Assembly: GCA_025357945.1 (NCBI GenBank)
Contig: JANYLJ010000018.1
Location: 1-64,000, forward strand
Length of the DNA: 64,000 nt
Reading direction: 5' to 3'
Source of the DNA: Gemmatimonadota bacterium
Lineage (GTDB): Bacteria; Gemmatimonadota; Gemmatimonadetes; Gemmatimonadales; GWC2-71-9
This document shows positions 10,545 to 19,371 of this stretch, one piece after another. Both the position numbers and the translations under genes were made by a program. Each line of letters begins with the position of its first letter. Position 1 is the stretch's first letter. Under the pieces are notes generated by a model. That model had not been told where the DNA came from, did no database searches, and saw only the letters and a list, made by a program, of their open reading frames with translations.

Positions 10545-11675
10545 CTACCGGGCGCTGGGCGCCCGCCACTCCGGCACGGACGGGAGGACGGGGAGCACCT
10601 CGACGAGTACCACCCCCCGCTGCATCGAGGGCACGCCGTGGATATACACGACGAGGCCGTCCACCGGTGAAAGAACCGCGCCGGTCTTCTGACCGAGGAA
10701 GTCCGTCGTGTAACCGAGTTGTTGGCCCTTCTTCACCATCACATTCGGTGCGACCGACGCGAACCACACCCCCGCCCGCTCGGCGGCGATGCGCGGCCCC
10801 GCGCCGTCGAGAAATAGCGGATGGAGGGCGTGCGGCGCCGGGCGAATGAGCATCTTGAGCGCGCCGAGCATGTTGAGCGAGCCGTTCACGATGGTCGTGA
10901 GATCCGCCGGGGCCACGACGCCGCTTCGCCCGGCGGCGACAAGGATCACCGTCTTGCCCCGTATCAGCGCCTGTCCCGCCAGCGTGCCTCCCGTCCTCGG
11001 GGCCTCGGCGCTCCGGTCCATGATGAGGATATGGTTGAGCCCGAATGCCATCGCCATCCGGAGCCCCTCCGAGTCCGGCTTCGCCCGGCCGCCCCGCACC
11101 ACGGCGCTGAACGGGGCCCCCACGTCCTCGTCCAGATCACCGCCGTGGAAGTCGACGACGACATCGGCCTGGGCGATCACCTGGCTCGTCAGCAACGCCA
11201 TCGCGCGCTGGCTCTGCGTGCCAGCCGTATCGCCCGGGTAGCCGCCAACCATCGTCTTGCCGTCCACGGGATTCCGGATCGGCGTCATCGACGTGAAAGA
11301 CGGGATGTTGACCGCCGGGACGATGATCACGGTGCCGGCGAGCTTGGCAGGATCGATGCGCGGAATCAGCCGCTGCATGGCGATGATCGTGCTGTACTCT
11401 GTCGCGTGCGTGCCGGCCACGAAGGCCACCACGGGACCCGGATGGGCGCCGTGGATCACGGCGACGGGAATCGCCAGCGCCGAGTCGGAGCCCGCGGGCA
11501 CGGCGATGACACCAGTGGCTGTGGTGGCACGTTGCGCAGTGGCGGTGCCGACCGTGAATGTTGACCGGTCGGGCTGCTGCGCGTCGGCGGTGGCGGACAG
11601 CAGCGCCGTGATGGCGGCGGCGCTTGCGACGATTACCATGGCCTGGAGTCCGCTGTGGCGAATGCTGTGATTCAT
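10545..11675 (-). CDS. Exported succinylglutamate desuccinylase/aspartoacylase-family metallohydrolase
   Basis: This 376-residue protein has a signal peptide (about residues 1-32, ending TADA before QQPDRS). Its M14-like zinc site is seen as GTHATE (His and Glu) and, further on, VVDFHGG (His). This family removes acyl groups from amino acids or acts as a carboxypeptidase-like enzyme. The C-terminal part has a lipoyl-like beta fold region (VKKGQQLGYTTD) common in the AspA/AstE group. ATG at 11675 follows AGGA by 8-9 bases. It lies near the arginine operon but is exported and on the other strand, so a direct role in that pathway is doubtful. Confidence 0.82.
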   Translation of the reverse strand: MNHSIRHSGLQAMVIVASAAAITALLSATADAQQPDRSTFTVGTATAQRATTATGVIAVPAGSDSALAIPVAVIHGAHPGPVVAFVAGTHATEYSTIIAMQRLIPRIDPAKLAGTVIIVPAVNIPSFTSMTPIRNPVDGKTMVGGYPGDTAGTQSQRAMALLTSQVIAQADVVVDFHGGDLDEDVGAPFSAVVRGGRAKPDSEGLRMAMAFGLNHILIMDRSAEAPRTGGTLAGQALIRGKTVILVAAGRSGVVAPADLTTIVNGSLNMLGALKMLIRPAPHALHPLFLDGAGPRIAAERAGVWFASVAPNVMVKKGQQLGYTTDFLGQKTGAVLSPVDGLVVYIHGVPSMQRGVVLVEVLPVLPSVPEWRAPSAR

Positions 11676-11808
11676 GGCGTATTTCCTGTCGTTGGTGGCC
11701 ACAACTCGACGTCGGCCACCGAATATCGGGCGGGTCCGTGTGGCGCGCAATCCGTCTGCCGCGCGCCTGGGCGAGGCGTGGTGAGGGATGCACCGTCTTT
11801 CTGCAGCG

Positions 11809-13944
11809 TCAACTGCGGTCCTCGGATCGCAGCAGCACCGCTGCAATCACGGTTGCCTGAGCCACCTCGCGACGCGGCATGTCCGGTACGTCCGTGCGCA
11901 TGAACTCCCGGTCCGACAGTTCCAGTAGTTCGGCGATGACGGCGCGCCCGCCGAGCGTCGGGGGCGTGGCCGCGAATCGGAGGAGCCGGTCGAGCCGTCG
12001 GAGCGTGTCGCCGTCCCGCTTGGCAGCGGCTTGGCGGGCAAGGCGATGAATGCGACTGACCAGCGCCGGCGTACCGCAATCACTCATCGTGCATCTGGCG
12101 GCGGCAGCTCGGACGGCGCCGGCCAGTGTGATCGAGACGCTGGTCGGTTCGATCGTCATTGGTAGCGCGGCTCCGGCCCGGGCGATCAGCGCCGCAGCGG
12201 CGCGATCGTCGGCGCACCAGGTTCCGCCGCAATCGCGAGTCATGAACATCACACCCGCGCAGCCATCCCGCAGCAGGCGCACGGCAACGAGGTCCGCGTC
12301 ATTGCCGCCGTCGCTGAGGCCGGCGAAGAACGAACCGGCCGCGAGATACTCCCTCGCGCGGTCAGTCACCTCAAGTGCCTGCAACCATTCGTCGGCGAGG
12401 TGCCGCTTCCGGCGCACCCGCGCCTCCGGCGCCAGCGCGATCTCGATCGCCGGCCCCGGCACGCGAACGACCACCTCGACCTGCGCGTGTTGCTGGCCGA
12501 GGCGGAGCAGCCGACCTTCGCGCTGTTCGATGCGCGTCGCGGTCCACGGCCAGTCGATGTGCACGATGCGACCGGCCGACTGCAGGTCGAGCCCTTCGGC
12601 GGCGACATCCGTCGCAATCAGCATCCGCGGTACCATACGGCGAATCTGCCACGTTGGCCGGTTGACGCCGAACGCCGCCAGGACGGCGGCTCGCGGAACA
12701 CGGTGCGGGCCAATTCCAGCAGCATCGCCGGTGACCCACGCAGTGGCGTCCCCCAGCGTCACGCGGAGCTGCTGTGCGGTAGCACGATGGCGGGTGAAGC
12801 AGATGGTGGGGCAGGTGTCGTCACATCGCGCGACCACGGCGCGAATCCACGGATCATCCTTCGGTGTTTCGGTCAGCAATCGCTCGACACGCTCGATATC
12901 CGCGAGCGGCAGGTCGGCTGCCGCAATTCCGGCGGTAAGGAGCGGCCAGAACACCAGTTGATCGAGTGATTCACCAGCAAATTGACGCAGCATCGCGCGT
13001 GACGCTCCGCCAGCATCGCGCGATTGCAGCAACAACGCGCGATATCGCTTGAGCGCCTGATGGAACGCGGCATCGCTTGATGCGGCCGCGTCGAGGAGCA
13101 CCGAGGTCACTAACTGTCTGGTTGAGACGCACAGGCTGAGTTCGAGGCCGTCGATCGCTGCCACGGCCGCCGCCGCACGGGTCCGTTCCGATTCGTCCGG
13201 ACGCAGGATCGTCACGCGTCGGTCGATCGCGGCGTTGACGAATGCGGCGCTGCGGATCGCGATGCGCCGGAGGCTGGCGGGGGGTCGCGAGCACGATTCC
13301 AGATCGTTCAACCGGCCGATTCCGTCGAGTACCAACGCATCCTCGGGAAGCGCCAATCGCAGCAGCGTAATCAGGTCGCCGAGCCGGTTGACGATCGGTG
13401 TGGCGGTGAGAAGCAGCGTTCGGCAACCGACCAACCAGGGCGCGATGGTGCGTACCCGCCGGGTCGTGGGATCGCGAAGGCGATGCGCTTCGTCAACAAT
13501 GACGAGGGACGGGCGAACGCGTGGCAGTGCACCCCGACTGGCGCGCTCGTGCGTCCAGACGTGCAGCGGCACCTTGGCGCGCGCCGCCGCACTTTCCCAT
13601 TGTGCCCGCAGGATCGCCGGAACGACGGCGACAACATGACCGGGCTCATGGGCGGCGACCGCGAGCGCGATCCACGTCTTGCCAGAGCCGACCGATTCCA
13701 GCAGGAGTGCGCCGTTCCAGACGGCGAGGGCGGCCATGGTCCGCCGCCAGGGGTCGTGCTGATGGGGATGAAGGAACTCCGGCGGCGGGAGGGCACTCCG
13801 GTGCGGTGCCCGAGCCGCGTCGATTGCGTCGAGGATGTTTGCGAGCGGCGCGCACGTCGCAGCGCGACCGGCGATCTGTGCGCGACCGTCGATCCGGCGC
13901 AACGCTTCAGCGACGATTCTTGGCCACGCCAAGGAGCAATTCAC
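11809..13944 (-). CDS. SNF2/SF2-type DEAH helicase paired with a DNA methyltransferase
   Basis: This 711-residue ATPase has motif I ESVGSGKT at 83-90, DEAH at 151-154 and LLLTATP at 177-183. The second RecA-like half carries ATDVAAEGLDLQ and RIEQREGRLLRLGQ, the arrangement of SNF2/RapA-like double-strand DNA translocases. A histidine-rich HPHQHDPW box precedes motif I, like a Q-motif. The last 200 residues match nothing recognised. GTG at 13944 lies inside the 3' end of the methyltransferase (38-bp overlap), so the two are co-translated. No nuclease motif is evident. Confidence 0.85.
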   Translation of the reverse strand: MNCSLAWPRIVAEALRRIDGRAQIAGRAATCAPLANILDAIDAARAPHRSALPPPEFLHPHQHDPWRRTMAALAVWNGALLLESVGSGKTWIALAVAAHEPGHVVAVVPAILRAQWESAAARAKVPLHVWTHERASRGALPRVRPSLVIVDEAHRLRDPTTRRVRTIAPWLVGCRTLLLTATPIVNRLGDLITLLRLALPEDALVLDGIGRLNDLESCSRPPASLRRIAIRSAAFVNAAIDRRVTILRPDESERTRAAAAVAAIDGLELSLCVSTRQLVTSVLLDAAASSDAAFHQALKRYRALLLQSRDAGGASRAMLRQFAGESLDQLVFWPLLTAGIAAADLPLADIERVERLLTETPKDDPWIRAVVARCDDTCPTICFTRHRATAQQLRVTLGDATAWVTGDAAGIGPHRVPRAAVLAAFGVNRPTWQIRRMVPRMLIATDVAAEGLDLQSAGRIVHIDWPWTATRIEQREGRLLRLGQQHAQVEVVVRVPGPAIEIALAPEARVRRKRHLADEWLQALEVTDRAREYLAAGSFFAGLSDGGNDADLVAVRLLRDGCAGVMFMTRDCGGTWCADDRAAAALIARAGAALPMTIEPTSVSITLAGAVRAAAARCTMSDCGTPALVSRIHRLARQAAAKRDGDTLRRLDRLLRFAATPPTLGGRAVIAELLELSDREFMRTDVPDMPRREVAQATVIAAVLLRSEDRS

Positions 13945-16864
13945 GGTCGGTGGTGGAGAGGCCGAGCAACTCGCACACGCAGTCGTCGAGCGTCGACTGG
14001 ATGTCGTGGTCGGCGGCCGCGTGCGTCAGCGATGCGAGCACGGGGTGACCGAGGACAGCGCGCGGCAGCGGCAGTGCGCTGACGGTCCGCGCGGCGAAGC
14101 GGGCGCAGCCGCCAGCCGCCGGTTCCGCCCGCATCCGTGCGAGGGCGCGAATCGGGGTTGCGTTGAACCACGCGGCTAATGATTCGGCCACCGTGGCCGA
14201 CGACACCGCAGCGACATAACAGCTATTGAGTGGCACGGCCGCGGCGTCGTGGATCACGGCGGCCTGAAGTTCCTGCGACAGGTCGCGCCAGACAACGCGA
14301 TGCGGCGCGGTGGCGGCGCGGGTGCGAAAGAGCTGCCACCATGGGCCGCCATGCTGGTCGGCGCGCCGTTGCAGTCGTACCATCTCGCGCCCGAGGTACT
14401 CGGCCAGTTCGGCCGGCAAGCGTGGCCATGGAGTGCCGCGCGAATCTGCTGGCCAGAGTAGCATCGCACCGGGCGTTGCCGTGAACGGTCGCACATCGCG
14501 GCCTCGTATTGCCGGTCGGCACCAGGGGCCCAGCTCGTCCGGCGGGTCGAGGAACGCGAGGTTGGCACCTGTCTTGACGCCGAGCTGCGGTGTGACGAGT
14601 TCGGCCAGGCGAGGGTGCTCGTGGGCGAGTCGTCGGGCGACACGCTGTGCCGCGGGCGATGCGGTCAGCCATCCCGACCCTTCCTGCCACGCCGCCTGCG
14701 GTTGCGCCGGGTCGTCGCTGCGGAGTCCGAGCCGGACGGCATGACCCGGTGGTGGCAGACGCCGCGACGCGACGATTGCGAGCGGATAGGTCGTCGCCTC
14801 GAAGTCGGCGCGGGGATCACGGCCGAGATCCGCGACGCGGTGGATGGTGGCCTTCGCGACGAGGGCGGACCGGCAGGCGGTGGCGTAACCCGCCGTTGCG
14901 AGTTTGGCAGGAACCAGGAAGGAGAGAGTGCCTCCGGGTGCCAGGAGGCCGAAGCCGCGCTCGACGAAGGCGACGGAGAGGTCGGGCAAGTGGCGCCAGC
15001 CGGGCCCGGTACCACCGCGCCACCAGTGGTAACGAGTTGCCAGCGCGTCGCGCGTGGCCACCGGCAACTGTTCGGCCCGTACCCACGGCGGGTTGCCCAC
15101 GACCAGGTCGAATCCGCCGCGACCGATAATGATCGGTGCGAACGCCGCGCTGATGGCGAACGGCATCGCGGTGGTGTCGCGCACGAGGCGCCGTCGTTCG
15201 GTCCGCAGTTGCGTCCGTTGGCGACGCCGTACCGCGATGTCGCGCCGCCGTGCCGGATCCAGGTGCGGCCGATCGCCGAAGAGTGTCGGCTCGCGTGCCG
15301 CCGCAAGCAGTTCGGCGATCTCACGATCGATCACCGTTTCCTGTTCGCGGAGCGCGCGCAGCACGGCGGCGCGTTCCGTTCGTCGTGCGTCGGCGATCGC
15401 CGTGCGCTTGGCAGCGCCGTGGGCCCCGAGAATCGCGCGCTGGCGGGCGCGGATCCCACGGGCGGCGGCGGAGTCGAGCGCCGCCCCGTGAAGCGGATCG
15501 ATCAGCGCGTCGCCGGCGCGCACGCGGGCATCGAGGTTGGGCAACGGCGGCACCCGCCCGGGAGGACGACCGCGCATCGCTCGCAACACCTCGAGCCAGA
15601 GCCGCAACTCGCAGAGCCGCACCGCACCGGGATGACGGTCAACGCCGAACAGCCGGCGAGTGACCAGGTGGCGAACCCGTGCGGGCTGGCGTGGGCCGGG
15701 TCCGTGCAACAGTCCGAGTGCGCCAACCAGGAACGCCCCCGATCCGACCGCCGGATCGAGCACCGTGACGTCGAGCAGGATGCGCCGCAGGGTGCCGTCG
15801 GGATCATCGAGCGAACGTTCGATCGCCGACTCGCTGCGGCCGAGCTTCGGGGCGAGGTGGCACGCGAGTGCCTGTCGCAGCAGGGCATCGACCAGTACCG
15901 GCGGCGTGAAAAACGCTCCCTGCTGCTTGCGCTCGACCGGATGCATGACGCCCTCGAAGACGCGGCCAAGGAGTTCCGGCGTGACGCGACCGTCGTCGGC
16001 CGTCGCGTCCAGCGTCACGTCAACCCGGTCGACGAGTGCCGCGAAGGCGTCGCGCCAGTACTCCGCCGGCAGGCGCAGCGGATACCGGCGCTCGATCGCG
16101 TGCGGTTCGAAGAGACCGCCATTGAGGAACGGCACCGCGCCAAAGGCCCGTGCGAATCGCGAACGCTCGTCCCAACCGCGATTGAGCGTGCCGAAGAAGA
16201 GCGGATGCAACAGGTGGCGCGTTGGGTCGCGCTTGGCGATCAGGCAGCGATCAAATGCCTCGGCGAGGAAGCGCCGGTTGCCGTCAAGCCATCCTTCGGA
16301 TTCCACGAATCGGAGGAAGAGCAGCCGGGTGATCTGCGCCAATGCCCACGCATGGCGATCCTCGCGCGACACGGCACTGGGTAGCAGTTCCACCGCTCGA
16401 TCGAGCAGTTGGTGCAACAACCGAAAGGTCTGGCGTCCCGCGGCGTCCACATCGAGCGCTTCGGCCAGCGCGATGGCGTGTTCCAACGGTGTCGCGCGCA
16501 GGGTCCGGGCGGCCCACCCGAGTCGGCGCAGCGGGAGGGCGTCCGGCTCGCCGGTCGCGACGACGGCGAGCCGCACTGGCTGGATCGTTACGGCGAGGTG
16601 CCACCGTTCGGTGGCCGGGTCGCCCGCGATGAGAACGCCGAGGGTGCCGTGGCGGGCAAGACGTCGGGCGTGTCGCAACGTCTCGACCGGCCCGGCGATC
16701 GTTGTCCAGACCGGCAGCCCGGCGAGGGTGCCAATCTGTTGCACGTCGTCGCCGGCAGCGGCCGGAACCGGCAGGACGAAGGCGTCGCCGCCCAAGTGGT
16801 AGATCAGGTGAGACGCAGATGGTGAGGCCACGGCGATACATTCATCGAGGTGGGACTGTTCCAA
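13907..16864 (-). CDS. Large N6-adenine DNA methyltransferase (Eco57I/PglX-like)
   Basis: This 985-residue protein has an N-terminal module with LFLRFVESEGWLDG (about 182-195) and FLNGGLFEPH (246-255), as in type IIG/PglX-like enzymes. The catalytic core has GAFFTPP at 316-322, the SAM loop LDPAVGSGAF at 369-378 and the adenine-methylase motif NPPW at 591-594. A C-terminal target-recognition region (about 750-985) includes LGVKTGANLAF. A helical arginine-rich spacer (about 465-565) separates SAM loop and NPPW. No PD-ExK nuclease site was recognised. The start is uncertain: TTG at 16864 gives the full frame, and a GTG about 11 codons later is possible. It overlaps the helicase. Confidence 0.88.
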   Translation of the reverse strand: MEQSHLDECIAVASPSASHLIYHLGGDAFVLPVPAAAGDDVQQIGTLAGLPVWTTIAGPVETLRHARRLARHGTLGVLIAGDPATERWHLAVTIQPVRLAVVATGEPDALPLRRLGWAARTLRATPLEHAIALAEALDVDAAGRQTFRLLHQLLDRAVELLPSAVSREDRHAWALAQITRLLFLRFVESEGWLDGNRRFLAEAFDRCLIAKRDPTRHLLHPLFFGTLNRGWDERSRFARAFGAVPFLNGGLFEPHAIERRYPLRLPAEYWRDAFAALVDRVDVTLDATADDGRVTPELLGRVFEGVMHPVERKQQGAFFTPPVLVDALLRQALACHLAPKLGRSESAIERSLDDPDGTLRRILLDVTVLDPAVGSGAFLVGALGLLHGPGPRQPARVRHLVTRRLFGVDRHPGAVRLCELRLWLEVLRAMRGRPPGRVPPLPNLDARVRAGDALIDPLHGAALDSAAARGIRARQRAILGAHGAAKRTAIADARRTERAAVLRALREQETVIDREIAELLAAAREPTLFGDRPHLDPARRRDIAVRRRQRTQLRTERRRLVRDTTAMPFAISAAFAPIIIGRGGFDLVVGNPPWVRAEQLPVATRDALATRYHWWRGGTGPGWRHLPDLSVAFVERGFGLLAPGGTLSFLVPAKLATAGYATACRSALVAKATIHRVADLGRDPRADFEATTYPLAIVASRRLPPPGHAVRLGLRSDDPAQPQAAWQEGSGWLTASPAAQRVARRLAHEHPRLAELVTPQLGVKTGANLAFLDPPDELGPWCRPAIRGRDVRPFTATPGAMLLWPADSRGTPWPRLPAELAEYLGREMVRLQRRADQHGGPWWQLFRTRAATAPHRVVWRDLSQELQAAVIHDAAAVPLNSCYVAAVSSATVAESLAAWFNATPIRALARMRAEPAAGGCARFAARTVSALPLPRAVLGHPVLASLTHAAADHDIQSTLDDCVCELLGLSTTDRELLLGVAKNRR

Positions 16865-17815: not shown

Positions 17816-18370
17816 TTATCGCCGTCCCGCGAGCGGTCCCAGTTCCGCCTCCAACCCGTCCAGCTGCCGGGCCATGTCGTCGGCGTTGGTCTCGGTCAGC
17901 TGTTGGCTGTCCCGGTCGGTGAGCAGCAGCGATGCCACCAGCGCGTCGGTATAGCCGACGACCGCCGCCGCGATGCCGCTATCGACGATGGTATTGAGGC
18001 GGAGAAAGACCGCGACGGCACGACGCGGGCGCATGGTGGCCACGAACGCGCCGATGTACTTGATCAGGAGTACCCGCAATTGCTGGAGTTCTTCGACGAC
18101 TTCACCGGCGGCAAGACCGCGCGCTGCGGCGGTGCGGCCGTAGTGCTCCATCACATGCTGCCAGACCATCCTGGCTTCGCGCTTGAGGGGGCCGAGCATT
18201 TCCACCAGTGTCTCGACGATGAGGCGGTACTGGCGTTCGACCGTGGGCCGGGGAATGTTGCGGGAACCGGAGCGGCCGACGAGCCAATTGGCCCATTCAG
18301 CCACCATCGCATCGCGCGCGTCGAGCGTGGCCTTCGCGGCCGCCAACTGAGTCGGGTGGGACGAACGCAA
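17816..18370 (-). CDS. All-helical protein, possibly an RsbR/RsbRD-type sensor domain
   Basis: This is a 184-residue predicted all-alpha protein. TTG at 18370 is chosen because GAGGAG precedes it by about 8 bases; frames further upstream show no ribosome site. Segments such as PTVERQYRLIVETLVEMLGP and EVVEELQQLRVLLIKY resemble N-terminal four-helix or globin-like sensor modules of RsbR-type stressosome proteins and some histidine kinases, but no STAS or kinase domain follows. It is divergent from the LD-carboxypeptidase gene (44 bp). The function is unassigned. Confidence 0.6.
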   Translation of the reverse strand: MRSSHPTQLAAAKATLDARDAMVAEWANWLVGRSGSRNIPRPTVERQYRLIVETLVEMLGPLKREARMVWQHVMEHYGRTAAARGLAAGEVVEELQQLRVLLIKYIGAFVATMRPRRAVAVFLRLNTIVDSGIAAAVVGYTDALVASLLLTDRDSQQLTETNADDMARQLDGLEAELGPLAGRR

Positions 18371-18414
18371 CGGTCGTCTCCTCTGCAGAGTGATCCAACG
18401 TAATCGGAGCCCGA

Positions 18415-19371
18415 ATGCCGCCCAAGATCCTGCCACCCCGGCTCCAACCAATGGCCCGCATCGCCCTGCTGGCACCTTCGGGCCCATTGCTCGAACGCGA
18501 CCACCTGACGCGCGGCGCTGAGCTCTGCCGCGCCCTCGGCTTCGAACCGGTGCTGATGCCTAATGCCGGCAAGGCGCACGGATACCTCGCCGGCACGGAC
18601 GAGGAGCGCCTCGCGGACCTCAATGCTGCGCTCACCGACCCCACGATCGACGCCGTCTGGTGCCTGCGCGGCGGTAACGGGATGAACCGGATTGTGGACC
18701 GGGTGGATTTCACCGGCTTCGCCGCGAACCCGAAGGCGGTAATCGGCTACTCCGATATCACGGTGCTCCTCCTCGCCCTCACGACGGCCACAGGCGTCGT
18801 AACGTTCCACGGCCCGATGGCGCGGTTCGCCATGCCGGCATTCTCCCGCAGTCATTTCGAGCTCGCGCTCGTCCGGGATGGCGCTCCGGGCCTGCTTGGG
18901 CGCGTCCGAAGCGACCCCGACGTGCTCGGGTCGGCGCGCGGTCGAATCGTTACCGTCGTGCCCGGGCGCGCGACGGGTCGCCTCGTGGGCGGCAACCTCA
19001 CCTTGCTGCAGGCGTTGATCGGTACACCCTACTTCCCGGATCTTCGTGGCGCCATCCTTTTCCTCGAAGACATCGGCGAAGATCTCTATCGGATCGACCG
19101 CATGCTCGGCCACCTGCGCCTGGCTGGCGCGCTCGACGCACTTGCCGGTGTGGCGATTGGACATTTCTCGCGCATGCGCCACGCCACCGTCGAGGGCGCC
19201 TTCGGCCTCGACGACGTGCTCCGAACGTACTTCGCGCCACGTCACGTGCCCGTCGGGCACGGGTTCCCGATTGGTCACGTGGCGGAGCAGTGGACGCTGC
19301 CGATCGGCGTGATGGCGGAACTGGACGCGACGACCGGAGATCTCATTCTGCTTGAGCCTGGTGTTTCCTGA
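18415..19371 (+). CDS. LD-carboxypeptidase, peptidase family S66
   Basis: This 318-residue serine peptidase probably trims the terminal D-Ala from murein tetrapeptides in recycling (LdcA) or hydrolyses related adducts (MccF-like). The nucleophile serine is in GYSDIT; FLEDIGEDLYRIDRML supplies the conserved glutamate and GFPIGH the histidine of the triad. No signal peptide is seen, fitting a cytosolic recycling role. An internal ATG (MARIALLAPSG) 12 codons in is an alternative start. It heads a three-gene group with a hydrolase and a NUDIX enzyme; its stop overlaps the next ATG. Confidence 0.88.
   Translation: MPPKILPPRLQPMARIALLAPSGPLLERDHLTRGAELCRALGFEPVLMPNAGKAHGYLAGTDEERLADLNAALTDPTIDAVWCLRGGNGMNRIVDRVDFTGFAANPKAVIGYSDITVLLLALTTATGVVTFHGPMARFAMPAFSRSHFELALVRDGAPGLLGRVRSDPDVLGSARGRIVTVVPGRATGRLVGGNLTLLQALIGTPYFPDLRGAILFLEDIGEDLYRIDRMLGHLRLAGALDALAGVAIGHFSRMRHATVEGAFGLDDVLRTYFAPRHVPVGHGFPIGHVAEQWTLPIGVMAELDATTGDLILLEPGVS

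Follow-up and report, generated by a model that had tools for sequence, protein, structure and literature searches.

Modules that couple a methyltransferase to a RapA-like helicase are presumed to play a part in DISARM class 1, ARMADA, and BREX-like systems. DISARM class 1 combines the adenine methyltransferase DrmMI and the SNF2-like helicase DrmD with DrmA, DrmB, and usually the PLD protein DrmC. In ARMADA a PglX-like methyltransferase lies beside a RapA-like helicase, and protection is lost when either the Walker motif of the helicase or the NPPW motif of the methyltransferase is mutated (PMC12458937). BREX-related type 2 systems have DUF499 and a DUF1156 methyltransferase, and their HKD plus Swi2/Snf2 helicase architecture is common to the parent family of the locus described here (PMC12839542). 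Adenine methyltransferases are also kept as core orphan enzymes without a nuclease, as exemplified by CamA of Clostridioides difficile, which is conserved lineage-wide and has been described as rare outside this species (PMC8187626).

The locus under study lies in the window, i.e., the whole 64,000-nucleotide stretch of Gemmatimonadota DNA that was analyzed, and consists of a methyltransferase gene overlapping a helicase gene with the following features:

13907..16864, minus strand: gamma-class N6-adenine DNA methyltransferase, 985 aa, TTG start (assigned from the open reading frame list, Pfam, alignment, and model)
11809..13944, minus strand: SNF2/RapA-like DEAH translocase, 711 aa, lacking the PLD domain that its mobile relatives carry at the N-terminus
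13907..13944, minus strand: overlap of the methyltransferase and helicase genes, 38 bp
15731..15760, minus strand: SAM-binding motif LDPAVGSGAF, residues 369-378 (with L-D-P-A-x-G-S-G-A-F unchanged in all 24 orthologues aligned)
15083..15094, minus strand: catalytic motif NPPW, residues 591-594 (invariant in the 24-orthologue alignment)
14045..14728, minus strand: target-recognition domain (TRD), residues about 713-940, BseCI/TaqI-like
13675..13689, minus strand: Walker A GSGKT, residues 86-90 (G86, G88, and K89 invariant)
13483..13494, minus strand: Walker B/motif II DEAH, residues 151-154 (D151, E152, and H154 invariant)
12502..12525, minus strand: motif VI QREGRLLR, residues 474-481 (Q474, R475, G477, R478, and R481 invariant)
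11812..12414, minus strand: fast-evolving helicase C-terminus, residues 511-711, without conserved catalytic residues
9862..10767, minus strand: HAD phosphatase gene, true start inside the open reading frame, found next to the pair in roughly half of all loci

Both open reading frames are real and intact on the minus strand, as the initial annotation of two genes sharing 38 bp had proposed, and the true methyltransferase start may be slightly downstream since homology begins near residue 15-23. Pfam assigns Eco57I (5e-18) and N6_Mtase to the methyltransferase, and SNF2-rel_dom (6e-9) and Helicase_C (7e-9) to the helicase. The SAM loop, NPPW, and DEAH motifs recognized in that annotation are all present and, together with Walker A, conserved in the 22-24 homologues aligned; the catalytic motifs stay invariant across orthologues that are 31-73% (methyltransferase) and 24-62% (helicase) identical to the window proteins, and NPP[WYF] occurs in 57 of 57 core methyltransferases. 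The 24 aligned core sequences read NPPW, whereas the mobile relatives mostly carry NPPY. Judging from these alignments, the methyltransferase and ATPase motifs are intact and under long purifying selection.

Comparison with the described systems reveals likeness in parts. The pair falls into the same broad superfamilies as the methyltransferase and helicase of DISARM class 1, but the parallel drawn in the initial annotation does not extend to membership: the helicase reaches 72.3 bits with the NCBIfam DrmD model against a cut-off of 610, and DrmA, DrmB, and DrmC are absent from the flanks and not conserved in the loci of relatives. For BREX, PglX scores of 25-28 bits compare with cut-offs of 400-900, and the flanks hold no PglZ or BrxC. 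The window pair shares with ARMADA the juxtaposition of its two components, but its methyltransferase belongs to another subfamily, the pair is not mobile, and the window flanks contain no YprA-family helicase. As for BREX-related type 2 systems, Pfam finds neither DUF499 nor DUF1156 in the pair or its flanks, and the helicase bears no HKD domain. As in the core orphan methyltransferases of the CamA/CcrM type, vertical conservation throughout a lineage is observed, and the pair and its neighborhood hold no cognate nuclease, an unlinked one being possible. We know of no helicase partner of CamA, whereas here a methyltransferase-helicase pair spans an order. A literature search on Gemmatimonas methylomes or defence returned nothing relevant.

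The surroundings of the pair resemble those of ordinary chromosomal genes. In the window it is flanked by genes for AstE-like, HAD, ArgR, ArgH, S66 peptidase, hydrolase, and two unnamed proteins, with no PADLOC match; defence models matched none of these eight flanking proteins and none of ten conserved neighbors elsewhere, which bears out the earlier statement that no nuclease, DrmB, PLD, or PglZ gene is adjacent. Across families, NUDIX, alpha/beta hydrolase, S66 peptidase, family-2 glycosyltransferase, and an unknown 184-residue protein recur on one side; a HAD phosphatase usually stands on the other, followed in the window's genus by arginine genes, and no nuclease gene was recognized among these conserved neighbors. 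The phosphatase is probably a neighbor and not a proven part of the pair. Because the neighbors are housekeeping genes without matches to defence models, the site is not a defence island, and together with the order-wide core distribution described below this speaks against the defence-island enrichment considered in the initial annotation. Two further genes lie close by. An AstE/AspA-type deacylase gene (window 10545-11846) sits between the helicase and HAD genes and looks like a local insertion, since HAD directly follows the helicase in most relatives of the genus. In at least 15 loci, a conserved family of about 180-220 aa that has no Pfam match is found near the pair; it includes the gene at window 17816-18487 and, probably, its relatives in cluster c5 (e.g., L034:6440-6991).

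The distribution was surveyed in whole genomes within the phylum and, beyond it, in plasmid, phage, and viral collections. Among 61 close relatives, the methyltransferase is present in 57 and the helicase in 56, each gene being found in 42 of the 43 high-quality genomes of this set. Counts derived from the table of a 297-genome search of the phylum place the methyltransferase in 155 of 171 genomes of the order Gemmatimonadales vs. 15 of 126 others; nine of these 15 (families f4 and f9) are strong matches of the core lineage, and most of those examined among the six weaker ones are the mobile, PLD-bearing version. The helicase occurs in 90 of 105 order genomes that are at least 95% complete. 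One contig scan found a single close relative. The name of the order is taken from the NCBI lineage of Gemmatimonas. In 78 of the 84 genomes with both positions listed, methyltransferase and helicase follow one another in this order on one strand with a median gap of -21 bp, and the conserved co-occurrence that the initial annotation had proposed checking is thereby confirmed; five of the other six have the genes on different contigs, and one (G051) has 11.8 kb between them. In this last case (L071, 4461-16068) an insertion of about 11.6 kb splits the pair, and the methyltransferase also lacks its last part.

Throughout the order, the genes are kept in the same arrangement, overlapping or nearly touching, as a single-copy syntenic core locus at one fixed chromosomal site. 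The trees of both genes, quick searches with SH-aLRT support on genomes that are mostly draft assemblies, reproduce the taxonomy, recovering genus g1 and families f1, f2, f3, and f9 with no more label changes than the minimum, and the distances of the two proteins correlate at 0.92, a value reached in none of 2000 permutations. On this comparative evidence, the pair is a vertically inherited, order-wide core locus and not a rare defence cassette.

Exceptions to this conservation are informative. Both genes are gone from between preserved neighbors in five genomes (G208, G278, G193, G264, and G228), and in G191 a 198-residue N-terminal methyltransferase remnant (L138, 1512-2108) is left between the usual neighbors; the apparent absence in G251 is a methyltransferase running off the contig end. 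Small size (1.8-2.8 Mb) is common among the order genomes that lack the pair. In G109 (L266, 7334-11755) the methyltransferase is intact, the helicase is cleanly absent, and the usual downstream genes are directly next to it, while no helicase without a methyltransferase was found among the 61 relatives. The joint losses from intact flanks and the case of G109 therefore indicate that the pair is a dispensable functional unit whose methyltransferase can persist alone. These natural knockouts with intact flanks make its function directly testable.

More distant relatives are found on plasmids of cyanobacteria, Deinococcota, and archaea, where a methyltransferase and at least one variable gene accompany a helicase of about 1100 aa whose N-terminal part is a PLD domain (HAKxYLF...GSSN). 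PADLOC model C3a139 (HKD+Snf2) was the best one in three of the four plasmid helicases scanned. Mobile systems of this kind lie on eight plasmids (L118, L119, L120, L121, L122, L123, L133, and L134), and in most of them a variable gene (AbiEii nucleotidyltransferase, DUF262, SLATT, sigma-70-like, or hypothetical) stands in the middle, as if exchangeable effectors were carried. Counted by contig, 16 IMG/VR sequences hold a member of the methyltransferase family that either adjoins a helicase whose PLD motif is intact or is separated from it by one small gene, and eight more hold such a helicase together with a more distant methyltransferase; the PLD version also occurs in families f5, f6, and f7 of the class. 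These systems share with the window pair a linked homologous methyltransferase and SNF2 core, either adjacent or with small variable genes between, but have an intact PLD domain, sometimes extra variable genes, and divergent TRDs, all of which are missing from the window pair, itself a core locus.

The PLD domain can be followed along this lineage. The HxK...GSSN motif is intact in all 22 mobile helicases of the tree set and absent from the core; the order helicases start directly before the SNF2 core, and neither the window protein nor the others examined contain it. Family f4 retains a PLD-related domain, either fused or encoded by a gene of its own (about 190-230 aa); PDF stands in place of HAK, and the domain matches the active PLD in an hhalign profile comparison (93%, E 4e-7). 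Stand-alone genes of this type lie between methyltransferase and helicase (L128:4232-4813, L130:5066-5623, and L264:5613-6308), kept though catalytically broken by sequence. The N-terminal domain of family f9 resembles its f4 counterpart weakly (E 0.001) and gave no detectable match as a direct PLD homologue. In both trees, the core lineage (the order, f4, f9, and one IMG/VR contig of the same type) forms one clade and the PLD state changes once. This change is read as a loss because the trees are rooted on the mobile group, and the dead f4 domain agrees; by homology, the corresponding domain is dead in f4, doubtful in f9, and gone in the order. The initial annotation's description of the pair as reduced thus proves right in ancestry, the PLD nuclease borne by the helicase of mobile relatives having been lost in this lineage.

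Profile and model comparisons further define the two proteins. A methyltransferase profile of 24 orthologues matched M.BseCI (8e-29), then CamA (1e-19), and also MmeI among PDB structures, with the target-recognition half of M.BseCI aligning along the entire methyltransferase C-terminus. The AlphaFold2 model of this protein (pLDDT 76, pTM 0.73) has CamA as its closest solved fold (9e-19, TM 0.72 by target length), and BrxX, BseCI, and MmeI rank next; on the grounds of the M.BseCI alignment and these model neighbors, the C-terminus is recognized as a target-recognition domain. The helicase profile retrieved RapA first (5e-23) and then SWR1/ISWI, and foldseek with the low-confidence helicase model returned SNF2 remodellers, RapA among them. 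No family was matched by the helicase C-terminus (511-711), which shows a mean pairwise identity of 0.20 with one of 201 columns conserved at 95% or more, or by the N-terminal 130 residues of the methyltransferase, where two of 130 columns reach this level and no candidate catalytic set is seen. The latter feature sets the protein apart from type IIG restriction-modification enzymes, which unite nuclease, methyltransferase, and TRD in a single chain and of which it has the last two. The initial annotation had regarded both C-termini as partly unrecognized, possibly hiding an effector, and had called for modelling: this description holds for the helicase, where the modelled C-terminus (pLDDT mostly <50) is unusable, but not for the CamA-like methyltransferase. 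Since almost no residues are conserved in the helicase C-terminus, a hidden catalytic site there is unlikely, and so is a nuclease concealed in either C-terminus.

Divergence of the TRD separates the core from the mobile lineage. At equal catalytic identity, the ratio of TRD to catalytic identity is 0.81-0.87 in the core vs. 0.43-0.62 in the mobile group; at 50-60% catalytic identity, TRD identity is 0.45 (core, n=235 pairs) vs. 0.24 (mobile, n=7), the mobile sample being small and the pairs non-independent, with the same difference in every bin holding both groups. This pattern is consistent with a single, stable target throughout the core lineage and with target diversification in the mobile group. 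Core orphan methyltransferases of the CamA/CcrM type would also alter gene expression by methylating a fixed motif, a trait to which TRD stability speaks only indirectly. From such sequence comparisons, we infer methyltransferase activity and a constant motif.

Taken together, the pair is probably, though with considerable doubt, a nuclease-less descendant of a mobile restriction-like system that has been kept, along with its SNF2 translocase, for m6A marking of the whole genome, which suggests a defence weapon turned into a permanent DNA-marking device. The ancestor would have combined a mobile type IIG-like adenine methyltransferase with a PLD-nuclease/SNF2 helicase; after capture at one chromosomal site in the ancestor of the Gemmatimonadales, the PLD nuclease would have been lost and the remainder inherited vertically as a core two-gene operon. 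Throughout the host genome, the methyltransferase would put m6A at one order-wide motif, and the SNF2 motor, driven by ATP, may aid or read this marking, e.g., by sliding along the duplex and displacing bound proteins or polymerase, with regulation or marking of the host chromosome, not cutting of foreign DNA, as the presumed output. The initial annotation had left the choice between an anti-phage system and an epigenetic regulator; the latter is the better option because the locus is core, syntenic, vertical, and nuclease-less with a stable TRD, and an anti-phage system in a defence island is unsupported. Eukaryotic SNF2 remodellers partner DNA methyltransferases (DDM1/LSH type), and a more speculative, rather doubtful extension would make the pair their bacterial counterpart, in which a core methyltransferase, ancient and order-wide, needs a dedicated SNF2 translocase to place or interpret chromosome-wide m6A, derived by nuclease stripping from mobile defence.

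Some observations count against marking. CamA-likeness is common to defence methyltransferases, with BrxX and MmeI scoring close behind, rapid evolution of the helicase C-terminus could be a sign of conflict with phages, a defence system would likewise be expected to disappear from small genomes, and the direction of the PLD change depends on rooting with the mobile group, while the f9 domain shows no detectable PLD homology. A core immune locus acting without cleavage, in which self DNA is marked by the methyltransferase and unmarked DNA is attacked by the SNF2 motor through translocation and displacement, is the main rival, though an unlikely one: it would accord with the homology to DrmMI/DrmD-type models, the mobile relatives on plasmids and viral contigs, the contribution ascribed to such modules in the defence systems named above, the lost protection of ARMADA catalytic mutants (PMC12458937), and the pace of change in the helicase C-terminus. 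However, order-wide, single-copy, syntenic, vertical inheritance and a stable TRD are unlike mobile defence, the flanks lack the YprA/DrmA-type, PglZ, and nuclease partners on which those systems depend, and there is no defence-island context. The sequence evidence favours marking over such non-nucleolytic defence.

Two other explanations appear far less plausible. The helicase might mainly be a repair or transcription factor, acting in RapA-like polymerase recycling or Rad54-like remodelling with the methyltransferase as passenger or targeting subunit, as its best solved relatives, RapA and the SWI2/SNF2 remodellers, and the foldseek result from the low-confidence model would allow; this is very improbable given that the methyltransferase is better conserved and survives alone in G109, that none of the 61 relatives has the helicase by itself, and that its ancestry lies among methyltransferase-linked PLD helicases. 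Also very improbable is an active restriction system whose nuclease resides elsewhere in the genome or hides in the C-termini or the methyltransferase N-terminus. The inferred ancestor did have a nuclease and the two terminal regions resemble no family, but their near lack of conserved columns leaves no candidate catalytic set, the conserved neighbors include no recognized nuclease, and the pair is lost jointly while flanking genes stay.

The preferred reading, that of a marking module, would amount to a traceable stepwise disarming of a mobile defence system, from an active PLD nuclease via a dead domain to none, with its marking and motor components ending up as core genes throughout an order. 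It also calls for caution, as a methyltransferase next to a DrmD-like helicase alone is no proof of phage defence. If marking proves true, the Gemmatimonadota would possess a conserved epigenetic system, and a pairing of methyltransferase and SNF2 motor would be established for bacteria.
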